From positions 9,672,001 to 9,736,000 of the forward strand of contig JAHQIY010000002.1 in the NCBI GenBank assembly GCA_019054805.1: a DNA stretch of 64,000 bases, written 5' to 3'. Numbering within the stretch: the stretch's first letter is position 1; each line of letters opens with the position of its first letter. The notes under the pieces are model-generated. The model saw only the letters and a list, made by a program, of their open reading frames with translations. It searched no databases and was not told the origin of the DNA. Source of the stretch: Brachionus manjavacas. Taxonomy: Eukaryota > Rotifera > Eurotatoria > Ploima > Brachionidae. Shown in pieces: positions 88 through 34,501 of the stretch. A program made the position numbers and the translations under genes.

Positions 88-189
88 GGATCAGTTGCGT
101 CTTTTTATAACCATTTGACAAGAATTAGAGAGAAATTATCAAAACTTCAAAGAGAAAATAACCAAGAAATTCATTACCTAGTTGTAGTA

Positions 190-404
190 GTAGTAGGAGT
201 GAATGCTGTCGGGTTTTTATCCCGAGTAGTAGCGACAGTAGACGCTCTCCTTTAACAGTCTTACACCATTTTTAGCAATTTTAAATATATAACTAGTTTA
301 ATGTTAATTACAATATAACTTTAGAATAGCAATGTTTCTCCTTAAAATATTTTCTCTAAAATTAGAATTTGTTTAAATAAATAAATAATATTTCACAGAA
401 AATG
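190..404 (-). other. LINE copy A, 3' UTR and tail
   Basis: Sequence downstream of the ORF2 stop codon (405-407) of the minus-strand LINE. It is AT-rich, with a conserved distal part containing a short self-complementary CGGG/CCCG stretch. It ends in a short trinucleotide-like tail (CTA repeats on the minus strand, about 181-200). CR1-type LINEs commonly end in a short simple repeat rather than poly(A). The same region is seen at 34186-34400 and 34521-34731, with differences in the tail repeats. Confidence 0.6.
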
Positions 405-1463
405 TTAAAGCATATCAATTCGGTTTTTGAATAAGTTCGTGTTAGTGATGCTTCTTGTACCCGAATCGAGTGTGTTCCAGTAACCAGCTGTTCGATTGGT
501 AAAAGTGATGCCTAACCCCATAAAGCTCTATGGGGTTCGGCATCACTGATGATGATGAATCTTATGTAACTGGATTAGGTCACCACGTCTCCGTCTTTCT
601 TCGAGTGTCGTTCACCCAAGAGCTTCTCTTCTTTCTACATACCGCTTTGAATTTAACTCAGGAACCAGTTTTGAGAATTTCCTCTGAACACGTTCAAGAA
701 TATCGATATCTCCTCGTCGATACGGATTCCAAGCGTTACATGCAAATTCTAGATGTGGCCTAATGAAAGACTTAAATAACCGATTAATAAGATTTTTTGA
801 GAAGTAGGTAAATGTATTTTTAATTCTGCTTGCTACCATCGTTGCCCTTGCGGCTGCTCTTCTAGATTGCTCCCCTGACTTGTGATCACTAGTGATAATG
901 ATTCCCAAATCTCTCTCTTTGGTTGATTTAGCATGAGATTTACCCTCCATTTTATAATCATGGTGATGATTGTTTGCTCCAAAATGCATAACTACACACT
1001 TGTATAAGTTGAAGTCCATTTTCCAAAATCAAATTATCAAGGTCCTTTTGAATCACTGCATGCCCTTCAGCAGATAGAACGGTGTTCATGAGCTTTGTGT
1101 CATCTGCATAAAGCTTACAGAATGATTTACAGAGATCTAGTAAATTATAGACATAGATAATAAAAAGAAGAGGACCTAGAACGGAACCTTGAGGTACACC
1201 ACTTGTTACCGTTCTCCATTCGGATACAGCATTACCAATTACAACACGCTGTTTTCGACCTATCAAGAAAAAATGAATCCAGTTAATAAAAACGATCGGG
1301 ATTCCGTAGGCCATCAACTTGATGAGCAGGAGTTCATGTGAAACCTTATCAAAAGCCTTTGAGAAGTCAAGGTATATGACATCGGCAGGTAGTCCGATTC
1401 AAGCAGTGTAAGCAAATCTATTAACATGAATTTTGCTTAATAGGTAATCCATTTTTTTTTAGA
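405..1463 (-). pseudogene. CR1-like LINE ORF2, 3' half (copy A): reverse transcriptase C-terminal part
   Basis: The minus strand encodes, in order, an RT block with YLDFSKAFDKV, then SGVPQGSVLGPLLF, then the catalytic YADD box (about 1095-1110). The downstream LINE-typical region follows, with DLGIIIT and RPHLEFACNAWNPY, and then the C-terminal motif FTNR...YWNTL...FKNRIDML with a stop at 405-407. These are hallmarks of CR1/Jockey-type LINE ORF2. The frame is interrupted: a short loss after the LDNLILEN segment shifts frame into MDFNLYKC, another break follows ALG, and a 42-nt hairpin lies near the end. The RT begins only at its third conserved block; ORF1, endonuclease and early RT lie inverted at 3013-4587. 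A fossil, not functional. Confidence 0.85.
505..546. repeat. 42-nt hairpin in LINE ORF2 C-terminal region (copy A)
   Basis: Two 17-bp arms around an 8-nt loop; the outer bases read GTGATGCC and GGCATCAC. This copy has one mismatch (CCTAACC against CCGAACC in the other copies). It sits between the RRRRGDLIQLHK region and the FTNR region of ORF2, where CR1 proteins usually have several tens of residues, so it probably replaced or shortened that part. Confidence 0.8.
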
Positions 1464-1482
1464 ACAGTGCTTCGAACACTGT
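1464..1482. repeat. 19-nt imperfect palindrome at LINE 3'-half/spacer boundary
   Basis: Six-base perfect arms (ACAGTG, CACTGT) around CTTCGAA, itself containing TTCGAA. It lies at the point where recognisable RT sequence gives way to the AT-rich spacer. It recurs at 18901-18919 and 33110-33128. Confidence 0.6.
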
Positions 1483-3012
1483 AGCTTACGTAATTGAGCT
1501 GGGATGAAAATCATTTGGATCTTTTGAAAAATCTTTTTTTGGATCGGAGTGAGCGTGGAAACAATGAAATTCTCCGGTTAATTACCAAAACACAACGAAG
1601 CATAAATTACCTATATTTCGTTACAAGGATTTTTTAAAAAATGTATGTTTGGAATTCGGTAACTATGACAAATGAAACACCAGAAAAAAAAATATAAATC
1701 TTTAAAATTCATAGATTCCGAAACTTAAAATATTTGAAAAAATTTTTTTTACTTAAAGTGATGTATTCTAAAAAATTGGAATCCTTAAATTTAAAATCAA
1801 AAACATTTTTAGGATTCATAGAAAATAATTTTAAATTTAAGTTTTTAATTTTTATACTAAATTATAGAAAAATAAAAAATCTTTTTAAACTGTTCCCAGT
1901 GAATTATTTTGTAAAAAAATGATTTCTAATTTTTCAGAATAGGGTTGTAGAAAATTTTTAAAAATATGCTCCAAAGCACGGACAACAATTTGATAATTTT
2001 GTTATCGACACAAAAGAAGCATTTTTAATTCCAATCATCCTTTCATTGTTCATTTTAGATCTTATTTTTTCAAAATGGTCTCAACAGGAATCAATATCCT
2101 GATGTTTATCGGTAATGAAAATTTTTTGAACATTTTAAAATTCAAAATTTAATATTTTTTGTTTAAATAAATTGTAATCCTGCAATTAAACAAATTTTTA
2201 TTTAAAAAAAGCAATTATCTCAAATGTTGGTACTTGTATGCCCAATTTCATCAACAACTGTAATTTCAGTAACGATTTTTATAAATTTTTTTAAAATTTT
2301 ATTTTTTACCCAACTAGCCGTTACACGATACAAATAAACTTATAAAAAAAAATTTTTTTTCTTCTTTTTATTTTTTAAAATTTTACACAACAAAATAAAT
2401 TTAATCAAGTTTTTTTCTAAAAAATTTTAATTCCAAACAAAAATTTCATTTGAAAAAAAAAAACATTTTTACATAATGAAACATTTTATGAAAACTCCTT
2501 TTTTGATTTCAAATAATTATCAACAAGACGCTCATGAGTTTATGAAATTGGTAAATTATTGTTTTATTAATTTTCCTAAGAATTTAAAAGAAAAATTAAT
2601 AGAAAAAATAATATTTAAGAATTCGTTTTTGCTCTTATTTAAAATTTTATAACTTATTTTAAAACAGGTTTTAAAAGTTAAGAAAAAAAGTTCGAAAAAA
2701 TCTACATCAGGCAAGACCTCGGAATTTTTGATTTTTATAAAATTGACATGACGACTTTTCAGAGTTTTTTCTTGACTTAAGTGTTTAAAAATAGAGCAAC
2801 TTAGTTTTTGGTACAGGTAACGATTTTTAAAATTTTTTAAAAAAAGTGAAAATCTTGACTTGTACTATAATGACTTGTATTCAAAGTGTTTTTTCCAAAA
2901 ATTCAGCTGATGATCTATTTGAAAAAAATCTTTTAAAGTTGGTTAAAAAAATAAAAAAAAAATTTTTGAATAAATTTTCATAAATTATAAATTATCAAAA
3001 ATACTTGTCCGA
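1483..3012. other. AT-rich spacer, possibly LINE 5' UTR (copy A)
   Basis: About 1.5 kb with no protein homology; short ORFs such as 1734-1922 are low complexity. It contains GTAACGATTTTTA-type motifs twice (about 2269 and 2818). It directly precedes the ORF1 start at 3013 and occurs in all three LINE blocks (also 17377-18900 and 31580-33109), so it may be the LINE's 5' UTR. It could instead be unrelated DNA caught between inverted LINE halves. Confidence 0.4.
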
Positions 3013-3689
3013 ATGACAGCAGTCCATCAAGAGATTGATTTAAGCTTCTTACAAGAGGCTAACTGGCCAAAGCTTCCCTCAGCTACATCCGAAGTCAGAA
3101 AGAATCATCATAGCTGGTTGTCCAAAATCAGTAATAGCGTGAATTGACTTTATCAACGTATTGAGACTTTATAAAAAGAAAACAATACACAGAAAGTTAC
3201 TATCAAGACTCTTAGCACACTTGTTGATTCGCTCAATAATCCACGGGATCAACCTTCTCAAACTTCTTCTTCTTCTTCTTTGCTACCTCCAATCAACTGG
3301 TCTAAGATAGTTAATGGGATGGCCCACAAAGATGAGAATGCTGTGGCAATTATGGCAACTATTGGCACAGAAAGGAAAAAAAATGAAGAAAGAGCCAATA
3401 ATGTAGTTGCTTCGATTCCGGCTACGATTTTTGATTGCGAGGAAGGTTGTGAAGTTGAATTCATCCAAAAACTTGCTAACAAGCTAGGAGTTCCTGAAAG
3501 TAAGGCAAAGAAGGCCAAAAAATTAGTCGCGCAAAAGACAAGACAGTAAATAATCGAGTCCTTCTCGTAGTGGAGATGGAATCGCCAAGCGCAAGAGCCG
3601 ATATGATTCGCAGCTCGAGGAAGTTTCGTGATGATGAGAGGCACAAAAGCATTTACATAAACGATCAATTGAGTCTGCAGCTCGTCTAA
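3013..3689 (+). pseudogene. LINE ORF1-like protein (copy A)
   Basis: From the ATG at 3013 the frame reads a short N-terminal part with two in-frame stops. A Ser-rich run and PPINWSKIVNG follow, then a helical charged segment, then a block (VEFIQKLANKLGV...KAKK) leading to LLVVEMESPSARADMIRSSRKFRD...SIYIND. The last part resembles the RRM-like C-terminal region of LINE ORF1 proteins, nucleic-acid-binding chaperones. Complete, it would be about 225 residues. Copy A also has a one-base frame difference near 3525, after KKAKK, that copies B and C lack. ORF1 identity rests on motif pattern and on lying upstream of the endonuclease. Confidence 0.6.
3341..3370. repeat. Quasi-palindrome inside LINE ORF1 (copy A allele)
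   Basis: CTGTGGCAA and TTGGCACAG flank TTATGGCAACTA, a 9-bp hairpin with one mismatch. Copy C has the same outer hairpin perfect. Copy B has a different, inner hairpin perfect. Confidence 0.75.
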
Positions 3690-4587
3690 CTCCCAGCAAG
3701 ACTTTCTCCAGTGCTATCGTGATGGGAGACTTTAACATGCCAGATATTGAATGGAATGAAAGCGGAAGCCCAGTCCTGATAAATTCGTCATCACCAAGTG
3801 GAATGGTCAGTGATGCAATCAGCGGTTCTGGGTTGGTGCAGCTGGTAAACAGTAAACAGTCTTCAATTTAAGATAAATGTAAAATATGAGAGACCAAATT
3901 ACTTTGACAGTAGAGTCTATAATTGGAGAAAAGGTGATTATTTATCAATGGCATTGTATATGACTGATTTAGATTGGAAAAAATGCTCTCGAATCAAAAT
4001 GCTGCAGCAGAAATATTTAACAGTTCTCAAATCCTTTGAACTAGCATCTGATCTGTTTGACAAGAGACGAGTGCCTAGGAAAGGCTTTGCAAACCCACTT
4101 TGGTGGAATGTTAAAATAGCCTCGCTTGTCCGTCGTAAAAAGCGCCTTTTATAGCTAGCCGAATTAATAAGAATAAATTTTTACTGAACCAGAAGTACAA
4201 AATGGCTTGCAAACAGGTAAAGCTGGGAGTCAAAAAACGAGTAATTGATTTTGAATACAAACTGGCTGCTGAATCAAAAGAAAATCCGAAAGAATTATAC
4301 TCTTATATTAATAGCAGATTTAGAAAGAGTGAGAACATTGCAGCTATTATGAACTCAGAAGAACGTTTATTACCGAAAAGGAAAAAATTTGCAATACTCT
4401 AAATGAATATTTCCACTCAGCTTTAGATAAACCGACATCACCTGAAATAATTGAAAACGCAAGACAAATCTTTTTGCCCAGGTCACAACCCGATCCAGAA
4501 TTCAAAATTGAGGACATCGTTTCTTCAGAGAAGGTACTAAAAAGCTTAAAAATCTTCGAAGTGATAAGACAGCTGGTATTAGTATTG
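3690..4587 (+). pseudogene. CR1-like LINE ORF2, 5' half (copy A): endonuclease remnant to RT start
   Basis: From 3722 the frame reads MGDFNMPDIEWNE, the conserved aspartate/asparagine motif of the exonuclease-endonuclease-phosphatase nuclease of CR1-type LINEs, then a segment ending GLVQLVNS. The rest of the nuclease, including its C-terminal SDH motif, is missing. The linker follows (VYNWRKGDYLSM, ALYMTDLDWKK, NPLWWNVK), then the KENPKELYSYINSRFRKS block and NEYFHSALDK. It ends at the RT entry motif KNLRSDKTAGIS just before hAT at 4588. Roughly 100-150 RT residues between this end and the start of the 3' half are absent. Several frame breaks; non-functional. Confidence 0.8.
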
Positions 4588-6755
4588 CAGCGATTTCGAT
4601 TAATCGCGATTAATCGCGCGCGATTTTTCAAATCGAAATCGATCGATCATGATGTTCAAAAATCGCGATCAATTAATATCAATTCTAAATTTTCTTATCA
4701 TGAATTATGGCGCTTCTTTTTCTATTATTAAAAATTCACATAAAATTCGTTCAATTAGTTTTTCAATTTTGTTTTTGTTTATTAAATTATTCTTTAAAAA
4801 TAAATATGAGTTCACCTTTTTCTTTTCTTGTTTGGAGACATTTTTAATTGAATCCTGACAATCCTACAATCGGTATCTGTCAAATATGCCTAAAAACTAA
4901 AACAGAGAAAGATTCATCACTTTTGAGAAAAAACAATACTACAAATTTATGGAACCATTTAGAAGCTGATCACTATCAAGAGTTTATGTCAATTAAATCT
5001 TCTCAAGATAAATCAAAACAAGCTACTTTAAATGTTTCAAGTAAGAATAAATTAACATTTAATGTTGGCTTACAATCAAAATATTCAATCGATAGGTATA
5101 TAGCTGAAATGATAGTATCAGGATGTAATCCGTATAGAATAGTTGAAGAAGAAGGATTTAAAAACTTAATTAGCTATCAATGCCCAAATTATCAGCTTCC
5201 TTGAAGAGAGTTTTTTTTAAAACACTAATTAATAAAATATATGATGAAAATGTTGAAAAAATTAAAAAAGAACTAATACAAGCTGAATTCGTTACATTTC
5301 TTTCTGATTTATGGACTGAATCAATCAAGAATCATACTCTACAATTACAGCATATTATATAATTAATCAAGAGTTGAAAAGTTATGTTTTAGATACAAAA
5401 CCGTTTGGGTCTATTAGACATACAGCGGAAAATATTTCTATTGTCTTTAAAGCAGCAATCTTTAAATGGGATTTAGAAAAAAAAATTGCTGCGATTGTGA
5501 CGGACAACGCGGCGAATATTGTCAATACAGTAAATTAAACTGATAATCTCTCAATACGATGTTCAGCTCATAAAATTCAAATAGCAATTAACGATGCTTT
5601 TAAGAATAATAATCCAATAGATGATATTTTATCTAAGTGTAAGACAGTTGTTTCACATTTTAAACATTCAAGTCTAGCGGCCGCTAAGCTTCAAGTTAGT
5701 CAAACTTCATCTAAAAGAAAACAAGCTTATTCAAGAGGTCAGTACAAGATGGAACTCAAAATATTATATGATCGAGCGTTTATTTGAACAGAAGTCGAGT
5801 TTAAATCTGTACATCAGCGAAAATCCAGAAACGGATTTACCTCAATTAACGAATCAAGAATGGCGTATAATTGATGGCTTGATTAACATTTTAGAGCCAA
5901 TGGAAGCTTCAACAAGAATTCTAAGCGGTGACAAATATTCAACTATTTCCCTCGTTATACCACTTATAACAGGTCTTATTGTGAGTTTAAAGTCTCGAAA
6001 AAGCTCTGTAATAGTTTTTAATAAATTTTGAGATCATTTAGTCGATTCAATAAAGCGACGTTTCGCAGATTTAGTAAAAAATTGTTTGATTTCTACTGCA
6101 ACACTTTTAGATCCGAGAGTAAAAAATACGTGTTTTATTGAAGATGAAAAAAAAAGAAAAGCAGTAAAAAGGCTACAAGATTTGTTAAAGGCTAATTTTC
6201 AATCAAGCAAAAAGGGTACAACCAATAAAATTGAACGACTTTCGTCAGATGAACACCCATCGGCAAAAAGACCCTGTTTTGATTTAAGAGAATTTTTCAT
6301 AGAACAGCAATGCAAAGAAGATCAAAGTGAAAATAATGAGTTCGTTATTGAATTAGAGAATTATCTTAAACAACCTATCATTTTGAAAAAAAACGATACA
6401 GATTTATGTGATATATTGGATTGGTGGGAAAATAACAAATATTCATTTCCTTACTTATATAATTTAACTAAAAAATATCTTTCTATTCCGGCAACAAGTG
6501 CACCATGCGAAAGAAATTTTTCAAAAGCCGGAGAGATACTTTCCAAAAAAGGATCAAGGGTTAATCCAAAGAACTTTAACTCTCTTATTTTTCTCATGCA
6601 TAATATTAACAAATTGAGAAATGTAATATAAAAAATACCTTTTTTCTTTATAATATTTTTTTTTCTAATTTGTTTAAATAAAGTTTTCATTCAACAAAAA
6701 AATTTTTTTTGTATGCATTTTCGGGCGATTAAATCGACGATTAATCAATTTAAAT
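4588..6755 (+). mobile_element. hAT DNA transposon, copy 1
   Basis: Starts with CAGCGATTTCGATTAATCG, a CAG start typical of hAT termini, followed by a cluster of ATTAATCG/GCGCGCGAT and ATCGATCGATC motifs. The 3' region carries a related inverted motif (GATTAATCGTCGATTTAATCG on the minus strand, 6729-6749). The 5' end lies in the LINE at the RT entry motif, but the 3' side is fused to the 47-bp satellite rather than LINE, so no 8-bp target duplication can be recognised. The true 3' terminus may be missing. It encloses a broken transposase at 4806-6631. Confidence 0.8.
4806..6631 (+). pseudogene. hAT transposase pseudogene (copy 1)
   Basis: About 608 codons from the ATG at 4806, near the usual 600-700 of hAT transposases. 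Parts in order: a BED-type zinc finger (VWRHF, CQIC, then H and H in NLWNHLEADH); the RNase H-like core with SDLWTES, AIVTDNAAN (catalytic Asp) and CSAHKIQIAI; HFKHSSLAAAKL; the LEPMEASTRILS region; STATLLDPRVK; and the C-terminal dimerisation motif WWENNK..FPYL...YLSIPATSAPCERNFSKAG. An in-frame TAA at codon 14, a second in the TDNAAN region and at least two frame changes break it. The early stops occur in all four copies. Copy 1 alone has GFKNLI where the others have EFKNLI. Confidence 0.85.
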
Positions 6756-6765
6756 GTTAAAAGTC

Positions 6766-7058
6766 CTCCAATTACTTTATTCTTTCCCTATGGACTAATT
6801 GATTTACGAGGCGGTAATTAAGTTATTTCCTTACTTATTGACAACTTGAGTGACAAAGCGTCCATTTTTTACCTAATTTTCAAAAGGACAACATGAATGA
6901 CGAGAACTCCATTTACTTTTTTCTTTCCATATGAATTAATTGATTAACAAGGCGGGAATTTACTTTCTGCTCTACTTATTGAGAACTTGAGTAACAAAGA
7001 GTCAATTTTTTACCTTATTTTCTAATGGACAACATGATTGATATGAACTCCATTTATT
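6766..7058 (+). repeat. 47-bp tandem repeat, short array (TR1)
   Basis: About six ~47-bp monomers of three types. Type a has GACAACTTGAGTGACAAAGC, type b has CTCCATTTACTTTTTTC, and type c has GATTAACGAGGCGGGAATTT. They cycle to form a ~141-bp trimer. The array directly follows hAT and ends where the AT-rich ~20-bp satellite starts. Confidence 0.85.
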
Positions 7059-7541
7059 AAATGATTTTTTTTAAGCAAAAATCATCTTTTTTTGAGCAAA
7101 AATCATCTTTTATTTAGCAAAATTATTTCTTTTTTAAGAAAAATTAATCTTTTTTTTTGCTAAAATTATATTTTTTGAGAAAAAATGATCTTTTTTTTAA
7201 CAGAATTATTTCTTTTTAAAGCAAATATTAATATTTTCAAGCAAAAATGATCTTTTTTCAAACAAAAATGATCTTTTTTTTTGCTAAAATTATTATTTTT
7301 GAGAAATAATTATCTTTTATTTTGCAAAAATTATTATTTTTCGAGCTTAAATCATCTTTTATTTTGCAAAAATGATCTTTTATTTAGCAAAATTATTTCT
7401 TTTTCAGAAGAAAAGATTTTTTTTTTGCAAAAATTATTATTTTTGAGAAGAAATCATCTTTTATGTTCCAAAAATCATCTTTTTTAGCAAAATTATTTCT
7501 TTTTGAGAAATAATGATCTTTTTTAAGCAAAAATCATCTTT
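7059..7541 (-). repeat. AT-rich ~20-bp satellite, left-arm seed
   Basis: Tandem degenerate ~20-bp monomers of the form AAAAAAGATGATTTTTGCT (minus strand), with variants such as the perfect 14-bp palindrome AAATATTAATATTT. It is the same family as the >28 kb array from 35489. Its mirror copy at 26851-27540 carries one extra 208-bp unit. Confidence 0.85.
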
Positions 7542-7649
7542 CAGTCAAAGAAAAAATTATTTTTGATGCAATTTAATTAATATTTATTTCGAATACTACT
7601 AAAAAAACAACATTTTTCAATTTTGGATTAGAATGTGCTTTTGAAATAA

Positions 7650-8690
7650 CTACTTATTTTATCTCAAAATGTTATTTTTAGAGAAATAAGTTATTTTCAA
7701 AATAATTTCTTATCAAGAAGAAAAATTATTTATTTGAATAATAATTATTTTTTTGAATAAAAATTAATTTTTAGTACAAAAATTGCTTAAAAAAACACAT
7801 GTTTCGATTTTAGTTTAGACTGTTTTTTTGGAAAAATATTTCTTATCTTGAGGAAAAATTATTTTTTTTTTTTAAATTATTTTTTTTTTTTAAATTATTT
7901 TTTTTGTATTAAAAAATAATGTTTTAGGATTAAAATGACTTTTTTTTGAAATAAGCTAAAAGAATAACGATATGTTGAAATAAATAGAGGTAAGGCATTT
8001 TTAAATTTTTTAAGTGCAGGAAAAAATGAAGAAACTACTTGTTAGCAATTACTCAATGGAGTATGATATTCGATATATCTTGATTCGAATATAACTTCTT
8101 ATTTTGAGCAAAAAATTATTTTTTCTTCCATAGTTTCATCTTTGCATTTTGGTTTTTCAAAAGCCTGCTTTTTATATAAAGATTTTATAATTAATTTAAT
8201 TTGTATAATTTATAAAATATAATAAAGCTTTTTTCAATTAAGATTCATCAAATATTATTTTAAAATAAAAAAAAAATGTAAAAAAATCAAATATTCCAGA
8301 AAAAAAATTAGTGACTTAACTAAAAAATAGGTGACAAAATTCTGGTCACTTATTCCATCTCTAAAAATTAGGGGTCCAGTCTTGATGTGATATAGGTAAG
8401 ATTCACTGGACAAAAATATGTAATCAACTGGTCAACTATGACTAAAGACACGATATTGGTTAAGATTGTATTATTAAAAAAATCTTCTTTTATTAGCAAA
8501 AATGAACTTTTTTTGAGCATCTAGCAATATTTTGAATTAAAACCAGAGTTTTTTGTACTAAAAATAAATTTTTATTCAAGAAAGATAATTTTTATTCAAA
8601 AAATTAATTTTTCTACTAGATAAGAAATTATTTTGGAAAATAATTTTTTTCTCTAAAAATAACAATTTTAGATAAAATAAGTATTTATTT
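7650..8690. mobile_element. Inverted-repeat element, ~1.04 kb (left arm)
   Basis: The segment 7650-7782 (TACTTATTTTATCTCAAAAT to TTAGTAC) reappears as an imperfect reverse complement at 8550-8690. They share the order TTATTTTTAGAGAAA, AAAATAATTTCTTAT, GAATAAAAATTA, TTTTTAGTACAAAAA. About 770 bp lies between the arms. It could be a non-autonomous DNA transposon with long terminal inverted repeats or an old local inversion; no target duplication was identified. Confidence 0.45.
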
Positions 8691-9230
8691 CCTTTTATTT
8701 ATTGCTTTTTATGAAATATTTGAAATGAAAATCATTATTATTGTATAAAAACTAATTTTTGTTCTAAAAAGTTAAAATTCATTTTTTATCACGCATCAGA
8801 ATGGGATCAATATTAAAAACAATACTTTTGTAAGAAAAATACATTTTTGCTAAAAAAAAATTATTTAGCAAGAATAAAAGTCTAAAATAATTTTATAGCT
8901 TAAATATAAACTTATAAAATTAATCTTCAATTAATGATTAAAAATAATTAATTCTAGTCGTAAAAATCGAAAAAAGGGTATATATTTATCAATTTATTAG
9001 GTTTTTAAAATTCAAATATAAATTGATCTTAATTACTTTCTTTTCAAAAAAAAATCTTTATTTTTCTATTTTATTTAGTTAATAAAATTAAACCAAAAAT
9101 CATTTAAAATTCTAATGAAATTTTATCTTGTTGTCTTTTTTTATATGAGAAAATTAAAAAAGATAAAAAAAAATATTTTGCATTTTGTTGCAATATTTTT
9201 TTATGTTTATTTTATTAAGTCTAGTAGACT

Positions 9231-9859
9231 AGGTGACCATATTTCACTTATTATGTGAACAATTTTTGTTCTCGGGTTTTGTGAACTTTTAGTTTACTTA
9301 ATTTTTGTCTTTACGGAAAGGTGATCCAAAATTGGAATATGTGAACAATTTATTAATTAGGTGAACAAAAGATTTTTATGGTTTCAGAGGAACACTTCTT
9401 TAGCAATATTAATGATATTTTATGAGATTTACTCATCGATATTAGTTAAGAAACCTTAACTTTTGGTTTGAAGAGCTAAGTAGATTCGAAAGCTTAACTA
9501 AATGTTATACTAAATATGTGCTTCAACTGCATTAAGATCATCCACTGTAATAAATTGTCAACATCTCTTTGAGATATTAAAAAAAATTTTCAAAAGAATG
9601 TACACTATTTGGCGAATAATCAAAAGTAAAAACAAAAATAAATTATTATTAAATCTGTTTTTAATACAAAAAATGTGTGGACATTTTTTATAAAATGAAT
9701 TACTCAGTTTATACTCAATTTCTTCCATCTCTCAAATTATGTCATTTTATTTATATTTTTCAATATTACCTATATTATTAATTTAGGAACAGTGAACAAA
9801 TAGTTCACTAAACCCGAGAAAAAGAATTGTTCTCATAATAAGAGAACTATGGTTCACCT
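9231..9859. mobile_element. MITE-like element, 629 bp, with ~70-bp imperfect TIRs (left arm)
   Basis: The left end AGGTGACCATAT...CTCGGGTTTTGTGAAC matches, as reverse complement, the right end (AGGTGAACCATAG...CTCGGGTTTAGTGAAC). Shared blocks include TTATTATG, GAACAAT and CTCGGGTTT. An internal AGGTGATCC/AGGTGAACAA pair (9319-9366) repeats the terminal motif. There is no coding capacity. A 13-bp palindrome AGTCTAGTAGACT abuts the left end (9218-9230). No clear target site duplication. Confidence 0.6.
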
Positions 9860-10334
9860 TCCCGACCTGACCAATTTTATTTAATTTAATTTTAACTTAT
9901 CAAAAGGGAAATATTTTTATATATTTTTTCGATGTATATTTGAATTTCACAGCACCAATTGATTAGATATTTGGACTAGCAAAATTAAAATCAATAAGTC
10001 AAATCTGAATACATATTTAAAATGTAGTTGTGGTTAGAAATTAAAAAAAAATACTGTATAATGAACAGTTTTTGAAAGGAAAAATGCATTTATATTTTTT
10101 AGCTAAAAAATAATCGTTGCAAATTCTTTTGTTAAGTTTATTTTGTAAAAAAAGACATTTTCTTTTTGCCAAAATTGACATTTTTATTTGGAAATCAAAA
10201 AAATTAAATAATTTTGCCGAAAGATGAGTCCAAGACCTTTCATTTAATATATAATTCTATATGAACTCGTTTTTCCTTATTTAAAAGTAAAAGGTCCAAA
10301 TTTCAATGCAAATAGAGTATTGTTCTTTGCTTAT

Positions 10335-18900: not shown

Positions 18901-18919
18901 ACAGTGTTCGAAGCACTGT

Positions 18920-19273
18920 TCTAAAAAATGGATTACCTATTAAGCAAAATTCATGTTAATAGATTTGCTTACACTGCTTGAATCGGACTACCTGCCGATG
19001 TCATATACCTTGACTTCTCAAAGGCTTTTGATAAGGTTTCACATGAACTCCTGCTCATCAAGTTGATGGCCTACGGAATCCCGATCGTTTTTATTAACTG
19101 GATTCATTTTTTCTTGATAGGTCGAAAACAGCGTGTTGTAATTGGTAATGCTGTATCCGAATGGAGAACGGTAACAAGTGGTGTACCTCAAGGTTCCGTT
19201 CTAGGTCCTCTTCTTTTTATTATCTATGTCTATAATTTACTAGATCTCTGTAAATCATTCTGTAAGCTTTATG
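18920..19273 (+). pseudogene. LINE ORF2 reverse transcriptase fragment (copy B), cut at YADD
   Basis: Encodes YLDFSKAFDKV, MAYGIPIVFINWIHFF, GRKQRVVIG and SGVPQGSVLGPLLF, then stops at KLY, just before the catalytic ADD. The sequence switches to hAT copy 3 within an ATG shared by both partners (19271-19273). A 19063-19467 reading frame crosses the join, but that is coincidence. Confidence 0.85.
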
Positions 19274-24211: not shown

Positions 24212-24687
24212 AAGCAAAGAACAATACTCTATTTGCATTGAAATTTGGACCTTTTACTTTTAAATAAGGAAAAACGAGTTCATATAGAATTATATATTAA
24301 ATGAAAGGTCTTGGACTCATCTTTCGGCAAAATTATTTAATTTTTTTGATTTCCAAATAAAAATGTCAATTTTGGCAAAAAGAAAATGTCTTTTTTTACA
24401 AAATAAACTTAACAAAAGAATTTGCAACGATTATTTTTTAGCTAAAAAATATAAATGCATTTTTTTCCTTTCAAAAACTGTTCATTATACAGTATTTTTT
24501 TTTAATTTCTAACCACAAATACATTTTAAATATGTATTCAGATTTGACTTATTGATTTTAATTTTGCTAGTCCAAATATCTAATCAATTGGTGCTGTGAA
24601 ATTCAAATATACATCGAAAAAATATATAAAAATATTTCCTTTTTTGATAAGTTAAAATTAAATTAAATAAAATTGGTCAGGTCGGGA

Positions 24688-25315
24688 AGGTGAACCATAG
24701 TTCTCTTATTATGAGAACAATTCTTTTTCTCGGGTTTAGTGAACTATTTGTTCACTGTTCCTAAATTAATAATATAGGTAATATTGAAAAATATAAATAA
24801 AATGACATAATTTGAGAGATGGAAGAAATTGAGTATAAACTGAGTAATTCATTTTATAAAAAATGTCCACACATTTTTTGTATTAAGAACAGATTTAATA
24901 ATAATTTATTTTTGTTTTTACTTTTGATTATTCGCCAAATAGTGTACATTCTTTTGAAAATTTTTTTAATATCTCAAAGAGATGTTGACAATTTATTACA
25001 GTGGATGATCTTAATGCAGTTGAAGCACATATTTAGTATAACATTTAGTTAAGCTTTCGAATCTACTTAGCTCTTCAAACCAAAAGTTAAGGTTTCTTAA
25101 CTAATATCGATGAGTAAATCTCATAAAATATCATTAATATTGCTAAAGAAGTGTTCCTCTGAAACCATAAAAATCTTTTGTTCACCTAATTAATAAATTG
25201 TTCACATATTCCAATTTTGGATCACCTTTCCGTAAAGACAAAAATTAAGTAAACTAAAAGTTCACAAAACCCGAGAACAAAAATTGTTCACATAATAAGT
25301 GAAATATGGTCACCT
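24688..25315. mobile_element. MITE-like element with imperfect TIRs (right arm)
   Basis: Mirror copy of 9231-9859, 628 bp, with AGGTGAACCATAG and GGTCACCT ends. The two copies are near-identical and have corresponding flanks, so they are one insertion duplicated by the palindrome and not two insertions. Confidence 0.6.
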
Positions 25316-25710
25316 AGTCTACTAGACTTAATAAAATAAACATAAAAAAATATTGCAAAATATTGCAATATTGCAAAATTTATATTTGAATTTTAAAAAC
25401 CTAATAAATTGATAAATATATACCCTTTTTTCGATTTTTACGACTAGAATTAATTATTTTTAATCATTAATTGAAGATTAATTTTATAAGTTTATATTTA
25501 AGCTATACAATTATTTTAGACTTTTATTCTTGCTAAATAATTTTTTTTAGCAAAAATGTATTTTTCTTACAAAAGTATTGTTTTTAATATTGATCCCATT
25601 CTGATGCGTGATAAAAAATGAATTTTAACTTTTTAGAACAAAAATTAGTTTTTATACAATAATAATGATTTTCATTTCAAATATTTCATAAAAAGCAATA
25701 AATAAAAGGA

Positions 25711-26745
25711 AATAAATACTTATTTTATCTAAAATTGTTATTTTTAGAGAAAAAAATTATTTTCCAAAATAATTTCTTATCTAGTAGAAAAATTAATTTT
25801 TTGAATAAAAATTATCTTTCTTGAATAAAAATTTATTTTTAGTACAAAAAACTCTGGTTTTAATTCAAAATATTGCTAGATGCTCAAAAAAGTTCATTTT
25901 TGCTAATAAAAGAAGATTTTTTTAATAATACAATCTTAACCAATATCGTGTCTTTAGTCATAGTTGACCAGTTGATTACATATTTTTGTCCAGTGAATCT
26001 TACCTATATCACATCAAGACTGGACCCCTAATTTTTAGAGATGGAATAAGTGACCAGAATTTTGTCACCTATTTTTTAGTTAAGTCACTAATTTTTTTTC
26101 TGGAATATTTGATTTTTTTACATTTTTTTTTTATTTTAAAATAATATTTGATGAATCTTAATTGAAAAAAGCTTTATTATATTTTATAAATTATACAAAT
26201 TAAATTAATTATAAAATTTTTATATAAAAAGCAGGCTTTTGAAAAACCAAAATGCAAAGATGAAACTATGGAAGAAAAAATAATTTTTGCTCAAAATAAG
26301 AAGTTATATTCGAATCAAGATATATCGAATATCATACTCCATTGAGTAATTGCTAACAAGTAGTTTCTTCATTTTTTCCTGCACTTAAAAAATTTAAAAA
26401 TGCCTTACCTCTATTTATTTCAACATATCGTTATTCTTTTAGCTTATTTCAAAAAAAAGTCATTTTAATCCTAAAACATTATTTTTTAATACAAAAAAAT
26501 AATTTAAAAAAAAAATAATTTAAAAAAAAAATAATTTTTCCTCAAGATAAGAAATATTTTTCCAAAAAACAGTCTAAACTAAAATCGAAACATGTGTTTT
26601 TTTAAGCAATTTTTGTACTAAAAATTAATTTTTATTCAAAAAAATAATTATTATTCAAATAAATAATTTTTCTTCTTGATAAGAAATTATTTTGAAAATA
26701 ACTTATTTCTCTAAAAATAACATTTTGAGATAAAATAAGTAGTTA
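25711..26745. mobile_element. Inverted-repeat element (right arm)
   Basis: Mirror of 7650-8690. It begins near AAATACTTATTTTATCT and ends near AGATAAAATAAGTAG, with ~135-bp imperfect inverted arms. No coding capacity. Confidence 0.45.
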
Positions 26746-26850
26746 TTTCAAAAGCACATTCTAATCCAAAATTGAAAAATGTTGTTTTTTTAGTAGTATT
26801 CGAAATAAATATTAATTAAATTGCATCAAAAATAATTTTTTCTTTGACTG

Positions 26851-27540
26851 AAAGATGATTTTTGCTTAAAAAAGATCATTATTTCTCAAAAAGAAATAAT
26901 TTTGCTAAAAAAGATGATTTTTGGAACATAAAAGATGATTTCTTCTCAAAAATAATAATTTTTGCAAAAAAAAAAATCTTTTCTTCTGAAAAAGAAATAA
27001 TTTTGCTAAATAAAAGATCATTTTTGCAAAATAAAAGATGATTTAAGCTCGAAAAATAATAATTTTTGCAAAATAAAAGATAATTATTTCTCAAAAATAA
27101 TAATTTTAGCAAAAAAAAAGATCATTTTTGTTTGAAAAAAGATCATTTTTTCTCAAAAATAATTATTTTTGCAAAATAAAAGATAATTATTTCTAAAAAA
27201 TAATGATTTTTGCAAAATAAAAGATCATTTTTGCAAAATAAAAGATGATTTAAGCTCGAAAAATAATAATTTTTGCAAAATAAAAGATAATTATTTCTCA
27301 AAAATAATAATTTTAGCAAAAAAAAAGATCATTTTTGTTTGAAAAAGATCATTTTTGCTTGAAAATATTAATATTTGCTTTAAAAAGAAATAATTCTGTT
27401 AAAAAAAAGATCATTTTTTCTCAAAAAATATAATTTTAGCAAAAAAAAAGATTAATTTTTCTTAAAAAAGAAATAATTTTGCTAAATAAAAGATGATTTT
27501 TGCTCAAAAAAGATGATTTTTGCTTAAAAAAAATCATTTA
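26851..27540 (+). repeat. AT-rich ~20-bp satellite, right-arm seed
   Basis: Mirror of 7059-7541 but about 200 bp longer: the landmark ATTTAAGCTC occurs at 27041 and again at 27249, a 208-bp tandem gain. Monomer orientation is the same as the main array from 35489 (AAAAGATGATTTTTGC). Confidence 0.85.
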
Positions 27541-27834
27541 ATAAATGGAGTTCATATCAATCATGTTGTCCATTAGAAAATAAGGTAAAAAATTGACTCT
27601 TTGTTACTCAAGTTCTCAATAAGTAGAGCAGAAAGTAAATTCCCGCCTTGTTAATCAATTAATTCATATGGAAAGAAAAAAGTAAATGGAGTTCTCGTCA
27701 TTCATGTTGTCCTTTTGAAAATTAGGTAAAAAATGGACGCTTTGTCACTCAAGTTGTCAATAAGTAAGGAAATAACTTAATTACCGCCTCGTAAATCAAT
27801 TAGTCCATAGGGAAAGAATAAAGTAATTGGAGTG
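27541..27834 (-). repeat. 47-bp tandem repeat, short array (TR4)
   Basis: Mirror of TR1 (6766-7058): about six inverted ~47-bp monomers between the AT satellite and the 3' end of hAT copy 4. Confidence 0.85.
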
Positions 27835-27845
27835 ACTTTTAACAT

Positions 27846-30005
27846 TTAAATTGATTAATCGTCGATTTAATCGCCCGAAAATGCATACAAAAAAAATTTT
27901 TTTTGTTGAATGAAAACTTTATTTAAACAAATTAGAAAAAAAAATATTATAAAGAAAAAAGGTTTTTTTATATTACATTTCTCAATTTGTTAATATTATG
28001 CATGAGAAAAATAAGAGAGTTAAAGTTCTTTGGATTAACCCTTGATCCTTTTTTGGAAAGTATCTCTCCGGCTTTTGAAAAATTTCTTTCGCATGGTGCA
28101 CTTGTTGCCGGAATAGAAAGATATTTTTTAGTTAAATTATATAAGTAAGGAAATGAATATTTGTTATTTTCCCACCAATCCAATATATCACATAAATCTG
28201 TATCGTTTTTTTTCAAAATGATAGGTTGTTTAAGATAATTCTCTAATTCAATAACGAACTCATTATTTTCACTTTGATCTTCTTTGCATTGCTGTTCTAT
28301 GAAAAATTCTCTTAAATCAAAACAGGGTCTTTTTGCCGATGGGTGTTCATCTGACGAAAGTCGTTCAATTTTATTGGTTGTACCCTTTTTGCTTGATTGA
28401 AAATTAGCCTTTAACAAATCTTGTAGCCTTTTTACTGCTTTTCTTTTTTTCATCTTCAATAAAACACGTATTTTTTACTCTCGGATCTAAAAGTGTTGCA
28501 GTAGAAATCAAACAATTTTTTACTAAATCTGCGAAACGTCGCTTTATTGAATCGACTAAATGATCTCAAAATTTATTAAAAACTATTACAGAGCTTTTTC
28601 GAGACTTTAAACTCACAATAAGACCTGTTATAAGTGGTATAACGAGGGAAATAGTTGAATATTTGTCACCGCTTAGAATTCTTGTTGAAGCTTCCATTGG
28701 CTCTAAAATGTTAATCAAGCCATCAATTATACGCCATTCTTGATTCGTTAATTGAGGTAAATCCGTTTCTGGATTTTCGCTGATGTACAGATTTAAACTC
28801 GACTTCTGTTCAAATAAACGCTCGATCATATAATATTTTGAGTTCCATCTTGTACTGACCTCTTGAATAAGCTTGTTTTCTTTTAGATGAAGTTTGACTA
28901 ACTTGAAGCTTAGCGGCCGCTAGACTTGAATGTTTAAAATGTGAAACAACTGTCTTACACTTAGATAAAATATCATCTATTGGATTATTATTCTTAAAAG
29001 CATCGTTAATTGCTATTTGAATTTTATGAGCTGAACATCGTATTGAGAGATTATCAGTTTAATTTACTGTATTGACAATATTCGCCGCGTTGTCCGTCAC
29101 AATCGCAGCAATTTTTTCTAAATCCCATTTAAAGATTGCTGCTTTAAAGACAATAGAAATATTTTCCGCTGTATGTCTAATAGACCCAAACGGTTTTGTA
29201 TCTAAAACATAACTTTTCAACTCTTGATTAATTATATAATATGCTGTAATTGTAGAGTATGATTCTTGATTGATTCAGTCCATAAATCAGAAAGAAATGT
29301 AACGAATTCAGCTTGTATTAGTTCTTTTTTAATTTTTTCAACATTTTCATCATATATTTTATTAATTAGTGTTTTAAAAAAACTCTCTTCAAGGAAGCTG
29401 ATAATTTGGGCATTGATAGCTAATTAAGTTTTTAAATTCTTCTTCTTCAACTATTCTATACGGATTACATCCTGATACTATCATTTCAGCTATATACCTA
29501 TCGATTGAATATTTTGATTGTAAGCCAACATTAAATGTTAATTTATTCTTACTTGAAACATTTAAAGTAGCTTGTTTTGATTTATCTTGAGAAGATTTAA
29601 TTGACATAAACTCTTGATAGTGATCAGCTTCTAAATGGTTCCATAAATTTGTAGTATTGTTTTTTCTCAAAAGTGATGAATCTTTCTCTGTTTTAGTTTT
29701 TAGGCATATTTGACAGATACCGATTGTAGGATTGTCAGGATTCAATTAAAAATGTCTCCAAACAAGAAAAGAAAAAGGTGAACTCATATTTATTTTTAAA
29801 GAATAATTTAATAAACAAAAACAAAATTGAAAAACTAATTGAACGAATTTTATGTGAATTTTTAATAATAGAAAAAGAAGCGCCATAATTCATGATAAGA
29901 AAATTTAGAATTGATATTAATTGATCGCGATTTTTGAACATCATGATCGATCGATTTCGATTTGAAAAATCGCGCGCGATTAATCGCGATTAATCGAAAT
30001 CGCTG
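27846..30005 (-). mobile_element. hAT DNA transposon, copy 4
   Basis: Mirror of copy 1 with the same termini (CAGCGATTTCG start at 30005, GATTAATCGTCG motif near 27853) and the same LINE neighbour. It shares with copy 1 the AAATG 3' variant, LINKIYD, ITGLIV and the uninterrupted NDTDLCDILDWW segment. Confidence 0.8.
27968..29787 (-). pseudogene. hAT transposase pseudogene (copy 4)
   Basis: BED finger, RNase H-like core and C-terminal hAT motif in the usual order. The C-terminal 163 codons are open. The early stop after VWRHF and the stop after the TDNAAN region are present as in all copies, and a shorter homopolymer changes frame near EDEKK. It is the least interrupted copy in the C-terminal half. 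Confidence 0.8.
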
Positions 30006-30901
30006 CAATACTAATACCAGCTGTCTTATCACTTCGAAGATTTTTAAGCTTTTTTAGTACCTTCTCTGAAGAAACGATGTCCTCAATTTTGAATTCTGGA
30101 TCGGGTTGTGACCTGGGCAAAAGATTTGTCTTGCGTTTTCAATTATTTCAGGTGATGTCGGTTTATCTAAAGCTGAGTGGAAATATTCATTTAGAGTATT
30201 GCAAATTTTTTCCTTTTCGGTAATAAACGTTCTTCTGAGTTCATAATAGCTGCAATGTTCTCACTCTTTCTAAATCTGCTATTAATATAAGAGTATAATT
30301 CTTTCGGATTTTCTTTTGATTCAGCAGCCAGTTTGTATTCAAAATCAATTACTCGTTTTTTGACTCCCAGCTTTACCTGTTTGCAAGCCATTTTGTACTT
30401 CTGGTTCAGTAAAAATTTATTCTTATTAATTCGGCTAGCTATAAAAGGCGCTTTTACGACGGACAAGCGAGGCTATTTTAACATTCCACCAAAGTGGGTT
30501 TGCAAAGCCTTTCCTAGGCACTCGTCTCTTGTCAAACAGATCAGATGCTAGTTCAAAGGATTTGAGAACTGTTAAATATTTCTGCTGCAGCATTTTGATT
30601 CGAGAGCATTTTTCCAATCTAAATCAGTCATATACAATGCCATTGATAAATAATCACCTTTTCTCCAATTATAGACTCTACTGTCAAAGTAATTTGGTCT
30701 CTCATATTTTACATTTATCTTAAATTGAAGACTGTTTACTGTTTACCAGCTGCACCAACCCAGAACCGCTGATTGCATCACTGACCATTCCACTTGGTGA
30801 TGACGAATTTATCAGGACTGGGCTTCCGCTTTCATTCCATTCAATATCTGGCATGTTAAAGTCTCCCATCACGATAGCACTGGAGAAAGTCTTGCTGGGA
30901 G
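30006..30901 (-). pseudogene. CR1-like LINE ORF2, 5' half (copy C)
   Basis: Mirror of 3690-4587: endonuclease remnant GDFNMPDIEWNE, linker and NPLWWNVK, KENPKELYSYINSRFRKS, ending at the RT entry motif against hAT copy 4. One base fewer in the run after VRRK changes frame, fusing an otherwise separate reading frame (30191-30466). Confidence 0.8.
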
Positions 30902-31579
30902 TTAGACGAGCTGCAGACTCAATTGATCGTTTATGTAAATGCTTTTGTGCCTCTCATCATCACGAAACTTCCTCGAGCTGCGAATCATATCGGCTCTTGC
31001 GCTTGGCGATTCCATCTCCACTACGAGAAGGACTCGATTATTTACTGTCTTGTCTTTTGCGCGACTAATTTTTTTGGCCTTCTTTGCCTTACTTTCAGGA
31101 ACTCCTAGCTTGTTAGCAAGTTTTTGGATGAATTCAACTTCACAACCTTCCTCGCAATCAAAAATCGTAGCCGGAATCGAAGCAACTACATTATTGGCTC
31201 TTTCTTCTTTTTTTTTCATTTCTGTGGCAATAGTTGCCATAATTGCCACAGCATTCTCATCTTTGTGGGCCATCCCATTAACTATCTTAGACCAGTTGAT
31301 TGGAGGTAGCAAAGAAGAAGAAGAAGAAGTTTGAGAAGGTTGATCCCGTGGATTATTGAGCGAATCAACAAGTGTGCTAAGAGTCTTGATAGTAACTTTC
31401 TGTGTATTGTTTTCTTTTTATAAAGTCTCAATACGTTGATAAAGTCAATTCACGCTATTACTGATTTTGGACAACCAGCTATGATGATTCTTTCTGACTT
31501 CGGATGTAGCTGAGGGAAGCTTTGGCCAGTTAGCCTCTTGTAAGAAGCTTAAATCAATCTCTTGATGGACTGCTGTCAT
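30902..31579 (-). pseudogene. LINE ORF1-like protein (copy C)
   Basis: Start codon at 31577-31579. The frame from PPINWSKIV to the RRM-like end and stop at 30902 is open for 136 codons. The charged patch reads ATEMKKKEER, close to copy A's GTERKKNEER and unlike copy B's AIIEEER. The two N-terminal in-frame stops remain. Of the three it is probably nearest the ancestral sequence. Confidence 0.6.
31222..31251. repeat. Perfect outer hairpin inside LINE ORF1 (copy C allele)
   Basis: CTGTGGCAA and TTGCCACAG are perfect 9-bp arms around a 12-nt loop. Copy A has one mismatch here; copy B has lost this pairing in favour of the inner hairpin. Confidence 0.8.
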
Positions 31580-33109
31580 TCGGACAAGTATTTTTGATAA
31601 TTTATAATTTATGAAAATTTATTCAAAAATTTTTTTTTTTATTTTTTTAACCAACTTTAATAGATTTTTTTCAAATAGATCATCAGCTGAATTTTTGGAA
31701 AAAACACTTTGAATACAAGTCATTATAGTACAAGTCAAGATTTTCACTTTTTTAAAAAATTTTTAAAAATCGTTACCTGTACCAAAAACTAAGTTGCTCT
31801 ATTTTTAAACACTTAAGTCAAGAAAAAACTCTGAAAAGTCGTCATGTCAATTTTATAAAAATCAAAAATTCCGAGGTCTTGCCTGATGTAGATTTTTTCG
31901 AACTTTTTTTCTTAACTTTTAAAACCTGTTTTAAAATAAGTTATAAAATTTTAAATAAGAGCAAAAACGAATTCTTAAATATTATTTTTTCTATTAATTT
32001 TTCTTTTAAATTCTTAGGAAAATTAATAAAACAATAATTTACCAATTTCATAAACTCATGAGCGTCTTGTTGATAATTATTTGAAATCAAAAAAGGAGTT
32101 TTCATAAAATGTTTCATTATGTAAAAATGTTTTTTTTTTCAAATGAAATTTTTGTTTGGAATTAAAATTTTTTAGAAAAAAACTTGATTAAATTTATTTT
32201 GTTGTGTAAAATTTTAAAAAATAAAAAGAAGAAAAAAAATTTTTTTTTATAAGTTTATTTGTATCGTGTAACGGCTAGTTGGGTAAAAAATAAAATTTTA
32301 AAAAATTTATAAAAATCGTTACTGAAATTACAGTTGTTGATGAAATTGGGCATACAAGTACCAACATTTGAGATAATTGCTTTTTTTAAATAAAAATTTG
32401 TTTAATTGCAGGATTACAATTTATTTAAACAAAAATATTAAATTTTGAATTTTAAAATGTTCAAAAAATTTTCATTACCGATAAACATCAGGATATTGAT
32501 TCCTGTTGAGACCATTTTGAAAAAATAAGATCTAAAATGAACAATGAAAGGATGATTGGAATTAAAAATGCTTCTTTTGTGTCGATAACAAAATTATCAA
32601 ATTGTTGTCCGTGCTTTGGAGCATATTTTTAAAAATTTTCTACAACCCTATTCTGAAAAATTAGAAATCATTTTTTTACAAAATAATTCACTGGGAACAG
32701 TTTAAAAAGATTTTTATTTTTCTATAATTTAGTATAAAAATTAAAAACTTAAATTTAAAATTATTTTCTATGAATCCTAAAAATGTTTTTGATTTTAAAT
32801 TTAAGGATTCCAATTTTTTAGAATACATCACTTTAAGTAAAAAAAATTTTTTCAAATATTTTAAGTTTCGGAATCTATGAATTTTAAAGATTTATATTTT
32901 TTTTTTTTCTGGTGTTTCATTTGTCATAGTTACCGAATTCCAAACATACATTTTTTAAAAAATCCTTGTAACGAAATATAGGTAATTTATGCTTCGTTGT
33001 GTTTTGGTAATTAACCGGAGAATTTCATTGTTTCCACGCTCACTCCGATCCAAAAAAAGATTTTTCAAAAGATCCAAATGATTTTCATCCCAGCTCAATT
33101 ACGTAAGCT
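31580..33109. other. AT-rich spacer, possibly LINE 5' UTR (copy C)
   Basis: Mirror of 1483-3012, nearly identical apart from homopolymer lengths. No genes seen. It lies between the inverted 5' half and the 3' half of the LINE. Confidence 0.45.
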
Positions 33110-33128
33110 ACAGTGTTCGAAGCACTGT

Positions 33129-34185
33129 TCTAAAAAAATGGATTACCTATTAAGCAAAATTCATGTTAATAGATTTGCTTACACTGCTTGAATCGGACTA
33201 CCTGCCGATGTCATATACCTTGACTTCTCAAAGGCTTTTGATAAGGTTTCACATGAACTCCTGCTCATCAAGTTGATGGCCTACGGAATCCCGATCGTTT
33301 TTATTAACTGGATTCATTTTTTCTTGATAGGTCGAAAACAGCGTGTTGTAATTGGTAATGCTGTATCCGAATGGAGAACGGTAACAAGTGGTGTACCTCA
33401 AGGTTCCGTTCTAGGTCCTCTTCTTTTATTATCTATGTCTATAATTTACTAGATCTCTGTAAATCATTCTGTAAGCTTTATGCAGATGACACAAAGCTCA
33501 TGAACACCGTTCTATCTGCTGAAGGGCATGCAGTGATTCAAAAGGACCTTGATAATTTGATTTTGGAAAATGGACTTCAACTTATACAAGTGTGTAGTTA
33601 TGCATTTTGGAGCAAACAATCATCACCATGATTATAAAATGGAGGGTAAATCTCATGCTAAATCAACCAAAGAGAGAGATTTGGGAATCATTATCACTAG
33701 TGATCACAAGTCAGGGGAGCAATCTAGAAGAGCAGCCGCAAGGGCAACGATGGTAGCAAGCAGAATTAAAAATACATTTACCTACTTCTCAAAAAATCTT
33801 ATTAATCGGTTATTTAAGTCTTTCATTAGGCCACATCTAGAATTTGCATGTAACGCTTGGAATCCGTATCGACGAGGAGATATCGATATTCTTGAACGTG
33901 TTCAGAGGAAATTCTCAAAACTGGTTCCTGAGTTAAATTCAAAGCGGTATGTAGAAAGAAGAGAAGCTCTTGGGTGAACGACACTCGAAGAAAGACGGAG
34001 ACGTGGTGACCTAATCCAGTTACATAAGATTCATCATCATCAGTGATGCCGAACCCCATAGAGCTTTATGGGGTTCGGCATCACTTTTTACCAATCGAAC
34101 AGCTGGTTACTGGAACACACTCGATTCGGGTACAAGAAGCATCACTAACACGAACTTATTCAAAAACCGAATTGATATGCTTTAA
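33129..34185 (+). pseudogene. CR1-like LINE ORF2, 3' half (copy C)
   Basis: Same content as copy A: YLDFSKAFDKV, SGVPQGSVLGPLL, YADDTKL (about 33477-33500), DLGIIIT, RPHLEFACNAWNPY, VQRKFSKLVPEL, then TLEERRRRGDLIQLHK. After the hairpin it reads FTNRTAGYWNTLDSG to FKNRIDML and a stop at 34183-34185. A T-run one base shorter at about 33425 breaks the frame before the YADD box, unlike A and B. The break after LDNLILEN and the hairpin are shared with A. Confidence 0.85.
34043..34084. repeat. 42-nt perfect-stem hairpin in LINE ORF2 (copy C)
   Basis: Two perfectly complementary 17-bp arms (outer GTGATGCC, inner ACCCCAT) around an 8-nt loop AGAGCTTT. The downstream C-terminal frame reads through it, while the upstream frame is one base off and stops at its left edge. 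Confidence 0.85.
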
Positions 34186-34400
34186 CATTTTCTGTGAAAT
34201 ATTATTTATTTATTTAAACAAATTCTAATTTTAGAGAAAATATTTTAAGGAGAAACATTGCTATTCTAAAGTTATATTGTAATTAACATTAAACTAGTTA
34301 TATATTTAAAATTGCTAAAAATGGTGTAAGACTGTTAAAGGAGAGCGTCTACTGTCGCTACTACTCGGGATAAAAACCCGACAGCATTCACTCCTACTAC
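34186..34400 (+). other. LINE copy C, 3' UTR and tail
   Basis: Follows the ORF2 stop. It contains GTAAGACTGTTAAAGGAGAG and a CGGGATAAAAACCCG hairpin, and ends in ACTCCTACTACTCCTAC-type simple repeats, the likely LINE 3' tail. Copy A has one more uniform trinucleotide tract here. Confidence 0.6.
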
Positions 34401-34501
34401 TCCTACAACTAGGTAATGAATTTCTTGGTTATTTTCTCTTTGAAGTTTTGATAATTTCTCTCTAATTCTTGTCAAATGGTTATAAAAAGACGCAACTGAT
34501 C

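Follow-up and report, generated by a model that had tools for sequence, protein, structure and literature searches.

How near-identical inverted duplications came to lie one inside another in satellite-rich DNA, and in which order the copies were made, was addressed for a 64,000-nucleotide stretch of the Brachionus manjavacas genome (the window: positions 9,672,001 to 9,736,000 of contig JAHQIY010000002.1, hereafter contig C2, which is 9,902,226 bp long; assembly GCA_019054805.1, 114.17 Mb in 61 contigs). Positions are those of the window, and negative or large coordinates carry its numbering on beyond the window. Our analysis suggested that the locus is probably genuine, a chain of inverted duplications that arose very recently within satellite-rich DNA, most likely by successive fold-back. 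The rearrangement is of a known kind, of which this is a good, young example resolved to the base; it is not a new kind of system.

Self-BLAST of positions 1–35600 recovered an outer pair, an inner pair, and a third inverted copy (Table 1). A preliminary description of this DNA had given the outer pair as reverse complements, 88–15745 and 19271–34501, with a 3.5-kb spacer, and our ends agreed with it to within about 5 bp. The alignment of the two outer arms, A1 and A2, fell into four pieces: 84–7537/34506–27059 (99.06% identity), 7059–9024/27334–25377 (97.0%), 9178–12261/25368–22287 (98.9%), and 12204–15745/22813–19271 (98.5%). Over 15,009 aligned columns, A1 and A2 differed by 34 substitutions (0.23%), few in total and spread unevenly along the arm at 0–8 per kb, and by 50 indel events. 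The arms were not gapless; four indels were at least 5 bp long, namely 206 bp in the 21-bp satellite, 116 and 29 bp near 9.0–9.15 kb, and 467 bp in the 47-bp satellite. The length and identity of the inverted pairs exclude chance as their origin. The outer spacer belongs to a copy of the inner pair and is hence repeated, not unique, DNA.

The inner pair had been reported as the reverse complements 1107–7058 and 13342–19273, and was aligned here as 1107–7056/19273–13343 at 99.2% identity. Its two members, X1 and X2, are copies of a 5.95-kb block made up of remnants of a long interspersed element (LINE) and a hAT transposase remnant. The earlier observation that LINE–hAT occurs three times and hAT four times, in the order +, −, +, −, matched the layout of the four block copies X1–X4 obtained by self-BLAST. 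Pfam matches were found in three of the eight open frames scanned (RVT_1, Dimer_Tnp_hAT, and, just at the cut-off, zf-BED), and no intact gene was found in the arms by domain searches, the only way in which function was looked for. In the LINE at 192–4731, the reverse transcriptase part (− strand) faces opposite to another part (+ strand) that had no Pfam match and is presumably the 5′ part of the LINE. This internal inversion appears to be older, because positions 547–2290 recur, about 95% alike, at -83060 to -81302.

Judged by structure, junctions, and substitutions, the inner pair is older than the outer pair. Both inner copies are represented in each outer arm, by X1 and the 3′ portion of X2 in one arm and by X4 and X3 in the other, which places the inner duplication first. 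The junction of the block with the 21-bp satellite is common to X1 and X4, and the continuation into the 47-bp satellite is common to X2 and X3. When the four copies were compared over the 2.4 kb present in all of them, ten gap-free sites were variable. Three of these separated X2 and X3 from X1 and X4, with no other two-against-two pattern; the private sites numbered five in X3 (three in one cluster beside a 3-bp gap), one in X2, and one in X1. Pairwise differences in this region were one for X1–X4, five for X1–X2, six for X2–X3, and nine for X1–X3. Over 5.9 kb, X1 and X4 differed at 7 of 5,933 sites (0.118%), X2 and X4 at 14 (0.24%), and X1 and X2 at 19 (0.32%). Five of the seven two-against-two homopolymer indels in the shared 2.4 kb agreed with the same grouping. 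Such indels occurred at 17–22 per 5.9 kb among the block copies, nearly constant despite differing substitution divergence, and at 51 in 14.7 kb, 7 in 2.1 kb, and 8 in 3.1 kb in other pairs; they probably represent consensus noise or fast mutation, and were not used for dating. The opposite order, with the outer pair the older, was ruled out by the junctions and substitutions that set X1 and X4 against X2 and X3. Thus, of the preliminary proposal of successive fold-back events with the inner pair the older, the order held, being carried by structure, junctions, and three of three substitutions, whereas fold-back is a proposed mechanism and an unclear one for the inner pair.

A third inverted copy, the youngest and absent from the preliminary description, follows the outer one: positions 34398–33430 are copied to 34519–35488. 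Its arms, C4 and C5, showed no substitution in 969 positions and a single homopolymer indel. The same single substitution separates the left-hand original, C1 (about 192–1160), from both C4 and C5, which indicates that C5 was copied from the right arm (C4) after the outer duplication. A perfect small hairpin, CTCATCAT TTG ATGATGAG, is located at 34502–34520. The chain ends in the 21-bp satellite at 35488.

Table 1. Positions of the inverted copies and associated repeats in the window
Feature	Position	Strand	Description
Outer arm A1	84-15745	+	From self-BLAST and arm alignment
Outer arm A2	19271-34506	-	Reverse complement of A1
Outer spacer	15746-19270		3,525 bp; 5′ part of block X2
Outer junction	19271-19273	+	LINE (minus strand) to hAT (plus strand); 3-bp microhomology ATG
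Block copy X1	1107-7056	+	LINE-hAT; 3′ end joined to 21-bp satellite
Block copy X2	13343-19273	-	LINE-hAT; 3′ end runs into 47-bp satellite
Block copy X3	19271-21669	+	hAT part only (X1 positions 4652-7056); runs into 47-bp satellite like X2
Block copy X4	27542-33482	-	3′ end joined to 21-bp satellite like X1
Third copy, left arm C4	33430-34398	-	LINE 3′ part
Third copy, right arm C5	34519-35488	+	Compared with C4
Loop of third copy	34399-34518		120 bp; about 107 bp matching 84-192 in inverted orientation, followed by short insert
LINE remnants	612-1398	-	RVT_1 match in 958-1398
hAT transposase remnant	4848-6631	+	Spread over several open frames; clear Dimer_Tnp_hAT match, zf-BED match right at the cut-off
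21-bp satellite segment at X1 end	7059-7541	-	Mirror within 26851-27539
47-bp satellite array	10326-12945	+	Mirrored at 22071-24218
21-bp satellite array	35492-64000	+	Borders third copy; runs on to about 78 kb outside the window
Inverted block in 21-bp satellite	55580-59329	-	Candidate older fold-back onto 51422-55308, 271-bp spacer

The outer junction was resolved to the base. In a 70-base stretch across it, the match to the LINE donor took in the 33 leftmost bases and the match to the hAT donor the 40 rightmost, and the two overlapped by ATG. A 301-base query spanning the junction had one full-length match in the assembly, and the other 39 matches covered one side only (40 of 75 candidates scored); among these, the ends did not recur at dispersed sites, as the boundaries of an element would. 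A transposon with long terminal inverted repeats (foldback type) was rejected on a further ground: the sequence at -73817 to -69289 is homologous to -4009 to 519 straight through position 84, and since this homology passes uninterrupted through it, 84 is not an element end in the other copy.

Taken together, the structure favored duplication of repeat-rich DNA by fold-back or template switching, one event after another. In a first step, placed by the structure, the LINE–hAT block was present as X1 and X2 in opposite orientation, one on either side of a 6.3-kb center of 21-bp satellite, a dispersed repeat, and 47-bp satellite. In a second step, for which the junction is present in the sequence, a 3′ end at 19270 would have turned back and paired with its own strand at 15745 through the 3-bp inverted microhomology; synthesis back to 84 would then have left arms of 15.2–15.7 kb with the 3.5-kb loop as spacer. 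In a third step, whose junction is likewise present, the new end at 34506 may have folded back again with the short hairpin-forming insert and 970 bp may have been copied, and the copy would finally have been joined to the 21-bp satellite array. In our reading, the chain was probably left behind when breaks or forks were repaired in repetitive DNA, and the domain searches gave no sign of a function.

The arrangement resembled fold-back inverted duplications in human patients. In the junction set described for these, all 21 sequenced junctions had a spacer (766–70,466 bp, median 3,428 bp), 13 of the 21 had 2–8 bp of inverted microhomology, and five had inserts (PMC3907307, PLoS Genet 2014). As in that set, the inverted arms at the present locus (15.7 and 15.2 kb for the outer pair) are separated by a kilobase-range spacer, 3,525 bp against the median of 3,428 bp; the microhomology of 3 bp (ATG) lies within 2–8 bp; and inserts are present at some junctions. 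By comparison with the human cases as described there, the arms are 1–16 kb long rather than megabases, the duplications are nested and situated in DNA rich in satellites and transposable elements, the chain as assembled ends in satellite rather than at a telomere or translocation, and the material is a reference assembly rather than patients. In addition, the 120-bp loop of the third copy is shorter than any spacer given for the human set (PMC3907307).

Several observations weigh against successive fold-back. The case is built on the assembled sequence. An overlap of at least 3 bp occurred in 8.3% of 20,000 simulated random joins in the same sequence, and a chance of 0.083 makes the 3-bp microhomology weak evidence by itself. 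No visible feature accounts for the stop of the outer copy at 84. The inner pair departs from a simple fold-back: X2 has a 47-bp satellite flank that X1 does not have, and the satellite sides at its center are only about 76% alike. Two of the seven two-against-two homopolymer indels pair X1 with X2 against X3 with X4. Finally, pairs of at least 900 bp and at least 97% identity were counted in the neighborhood, the 264 kb made up of the window plus 100 kb of each flank. After removal of satellites by a simple filter there were 27 inverted and 21 direct pairs. These are overlapping, non-independent pairs, and the count misses any palindrome whose full-length identity is below 97%, that of the third copy included. 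The frequency of direct duplications of similar identity indicates that inversion is not the sole duplication process at work.

Among the other explanations, breakage–fusion–bridge cycles are rather unlikely. Unevenly resected broken sister chromatids would be end-joined into a palindrome with a spacer, repeated cycles would nest the palindromes, and the end would be stabilized in satellite. In tumors such cycles give nested palindromes, and the present locus likewise has an inverted duplication within an inverted duplication; nested palindromes and a final join to other sequence are the trace expected of repeated cycles, and the palindromes lie about 0.19–0.23 Mb from the end of contig C2. 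The scale is different, however, and there was no evidence of a dicentric stage in this sequence. Dicentric cycles usually copy pieces on the scale of a chromosome arm, whereas the arms here measure only 1–16 kb. The contig also runs 0.19 Mb past 35.5 kb, and no TTAGGG array was present on it among the matches listed. The fold-back model proposed for the human duplications itself includes a dicentric chromosome and cycles of this kind (PMC3907307).

An artefact is unlikely for the locus as a whole. It would consist of inverted chimeras from whole-genome amplification, or of an incorrect path taken through a palindromic assembly graph, with two haplotypes perhaps being joined. Multiple displacement amplification of single tardigrades yielded about one-third palindromic mitochondrial reads, many with multiple inversions, in the data described in PMC13265396. 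Palindromes with multiple inversions are what the locus shares with these chimeras; unlike the chimeras as described there, its outer arms carry substitutions and large indels (PMC13265396). The 34 substitutions and the indels of 206, 116, 29, and 467 bp are unexpected for in-tube copies of one molecule, although two haplotypes could yield such differences. The near-constant rate of homopolymer indels, whatever the substitution divergence, points to consensus noise in the sequence. Identity apart from such noise, the mark of an artefact, was found between C4 and C5 and not between the outer arms, and an artefact is possible above all for the third copy. Against this explanation, shared junctions and substitutions gave one coherent order, and other sequence is inverted-duplicated at other places.

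Near-identical inverted duplications besides the present locus were found within the 264 kb around the window and on contig C29. One of these, palindrome 2 (contig C2 positions 9750446–9780615; in window numbering 78446–93370/93777–108615), has 15-kb arms and a 406-bp spacer; 63 of its 78 substitutions in 14,670 columns fall in the first kilobase of one arm, and the other 15 are spread over about 13.7 kb. Its open frames match a gene-like open frame of 2,350 amino acids on contig C16 (83% over 132 residues), with two further matches on contig C26. On the other side of the window, the pair -81117 to -78969/-76299 to -74157 showed 2 substitutions in 2,141 with a 2,669-bp spacer, and the adjoining pair -85984 to -82840/-74157 to -70993 showed 23 in 3,141 (0.73%). 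A 1.15-kb palindrome at -10897 to -9748, with 18 substitutions in 574, is older still. On contig C29 (44001–54000), an inverted pair at positions 665–2998/10000–7669 of the piece was 99.4% identical, with 6 mismatches over 2,337 columns and a 4.7-kb spacer, in an alignment cut by the end of the piece; the spacing of matches suggested a recurrence of this arrangement some 85 kb further along. Head-to-tail LINE–hAT units, shifted by about 5.5 and 6.7 kb and more than 99% alike, were observed from -51259 to -32289.

Several of the fold-backs on contig C2 are so little diverged that they might share a single age. They could then stem from one burst in the germline, a recent and local fold-back catastrophe of satellite heterochromatin resembling chromoanasynthesis, instead of from separate accidents, but we consider this distinctly unlikely. 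The idea draws on the outer arms in the X block (7 substitutions in 5,933), palindrome 2 outside its satellite end (15 in about 13.7 kb), the -81/-75 kb pair (2 in 2,141), and C4/C5 (0 in 969). The 0.73% of the adjoining pair and the 0.32% of the inner pair indicate that not all inverted pairs are of the same age.

Non-allelic recombination between inverted LINE–hAT or satellite copies on sister or homologous chromosomes, with gene conversion then keeping the arms alike, is the least probable explanation, for although copies and satellites in opposite orientation are abundant, opposite 47-bp satellites meet near 12.94 kb at the center of the inner pair, and two of the seven homopolymer indels depart from the structure, the outer junction links unrelated LINE and hAT sequences that share just 3 bp rather than homologous repeats, and all three two-against-two substitutions follow the structure. 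Sex-chromosome palindromes are kept alike by gene conversion. The present arms resemble them in being about 99% identical in most pieces and in having a kilobase spacer; unlike them, only remnants of transposable elements were found in the arms, and the substitutions of the copies follow the duplication order.

Returning to successive fold-back, base-resolved duplications of this kind in germline satellite-rich DNA are scarce, since such regions long stayed unassembled. At this locus the sequence itself shows in which order three inverted copies arose, and the region holds more of similar identity. It could be used to learn if fold-back synthesis happens readily in satellite-rich DNA, and if its events are single or come in bursts.

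A candidate older event lies within the 21-bp satellite, which flips strand at 55.58 kb and returns at about 59.33 kb. The flipped block as a whole fitted the adjacent 51422–55308 best, at 83.3% against at most 81.4% among 24 other places listed, and near the boundary 1,274 columns matched at 90.5%, the runner-up reaching about 79.8%. When the block was divided into 300-bp pieces, 6 of 13 had their best inverted match inside 51422–55308, and just 2 of them at approximately the mirrored place. The block is possibly a fold-back blurred by satellite turnover.

The surrounding DNA is an AT-rich, repetitive mosaic of satellites and duplications rich in transposable elements. The 21-bp satellite, which begins at 35,492, reappears from about 108 to 118 kb. 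Besides blocks of the 47-bp satellite inside the window, there is an upstream array of it that spans some 20 kb (about -32 to -12 kb), and it occurs again downstream, starting at about 116 kb. The final 10 kb of contig C2, examined in addition to the 264 kb and separated from them by 56 kb, consists of a 262-bp satellite (38.3 copies, 97% match). This satellite content suggests a heterochromatic setting. In the window, ARAGORN found no transfer RNA and no Rfam family reached its gathering score.

The end of contig C2 was considered as a TTAGGG-capped telomere, and this was dropped in view of the terminal satellite and the lack of a TTAGGG array on the contig among the matches listed; an exact four-unit TTAGGG array was not on contig C2 among the 48 places listed, and exact five-unit arrays of TTAGGC and TTAGG were not found in the assembly. 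Elsewhere, TTAGGG arrays lie tens of kilobases inside contig starts (contig C6, 32 kb; C8, 48–50 kb; C14, 41 kb; C15, 66 kb; C19, 13.5 and 38 kb), which indicates that sequence extends outward past telomere-like repeats. Separately, contig C21 has a COX1-family match at 120555–121901 in an open frame of 667 amino acids. The neighboring open frames resemble what we take to be a bacterial oxidase cluster (33.6% GC), and this contig looks like that of a symbiont or contaminant.

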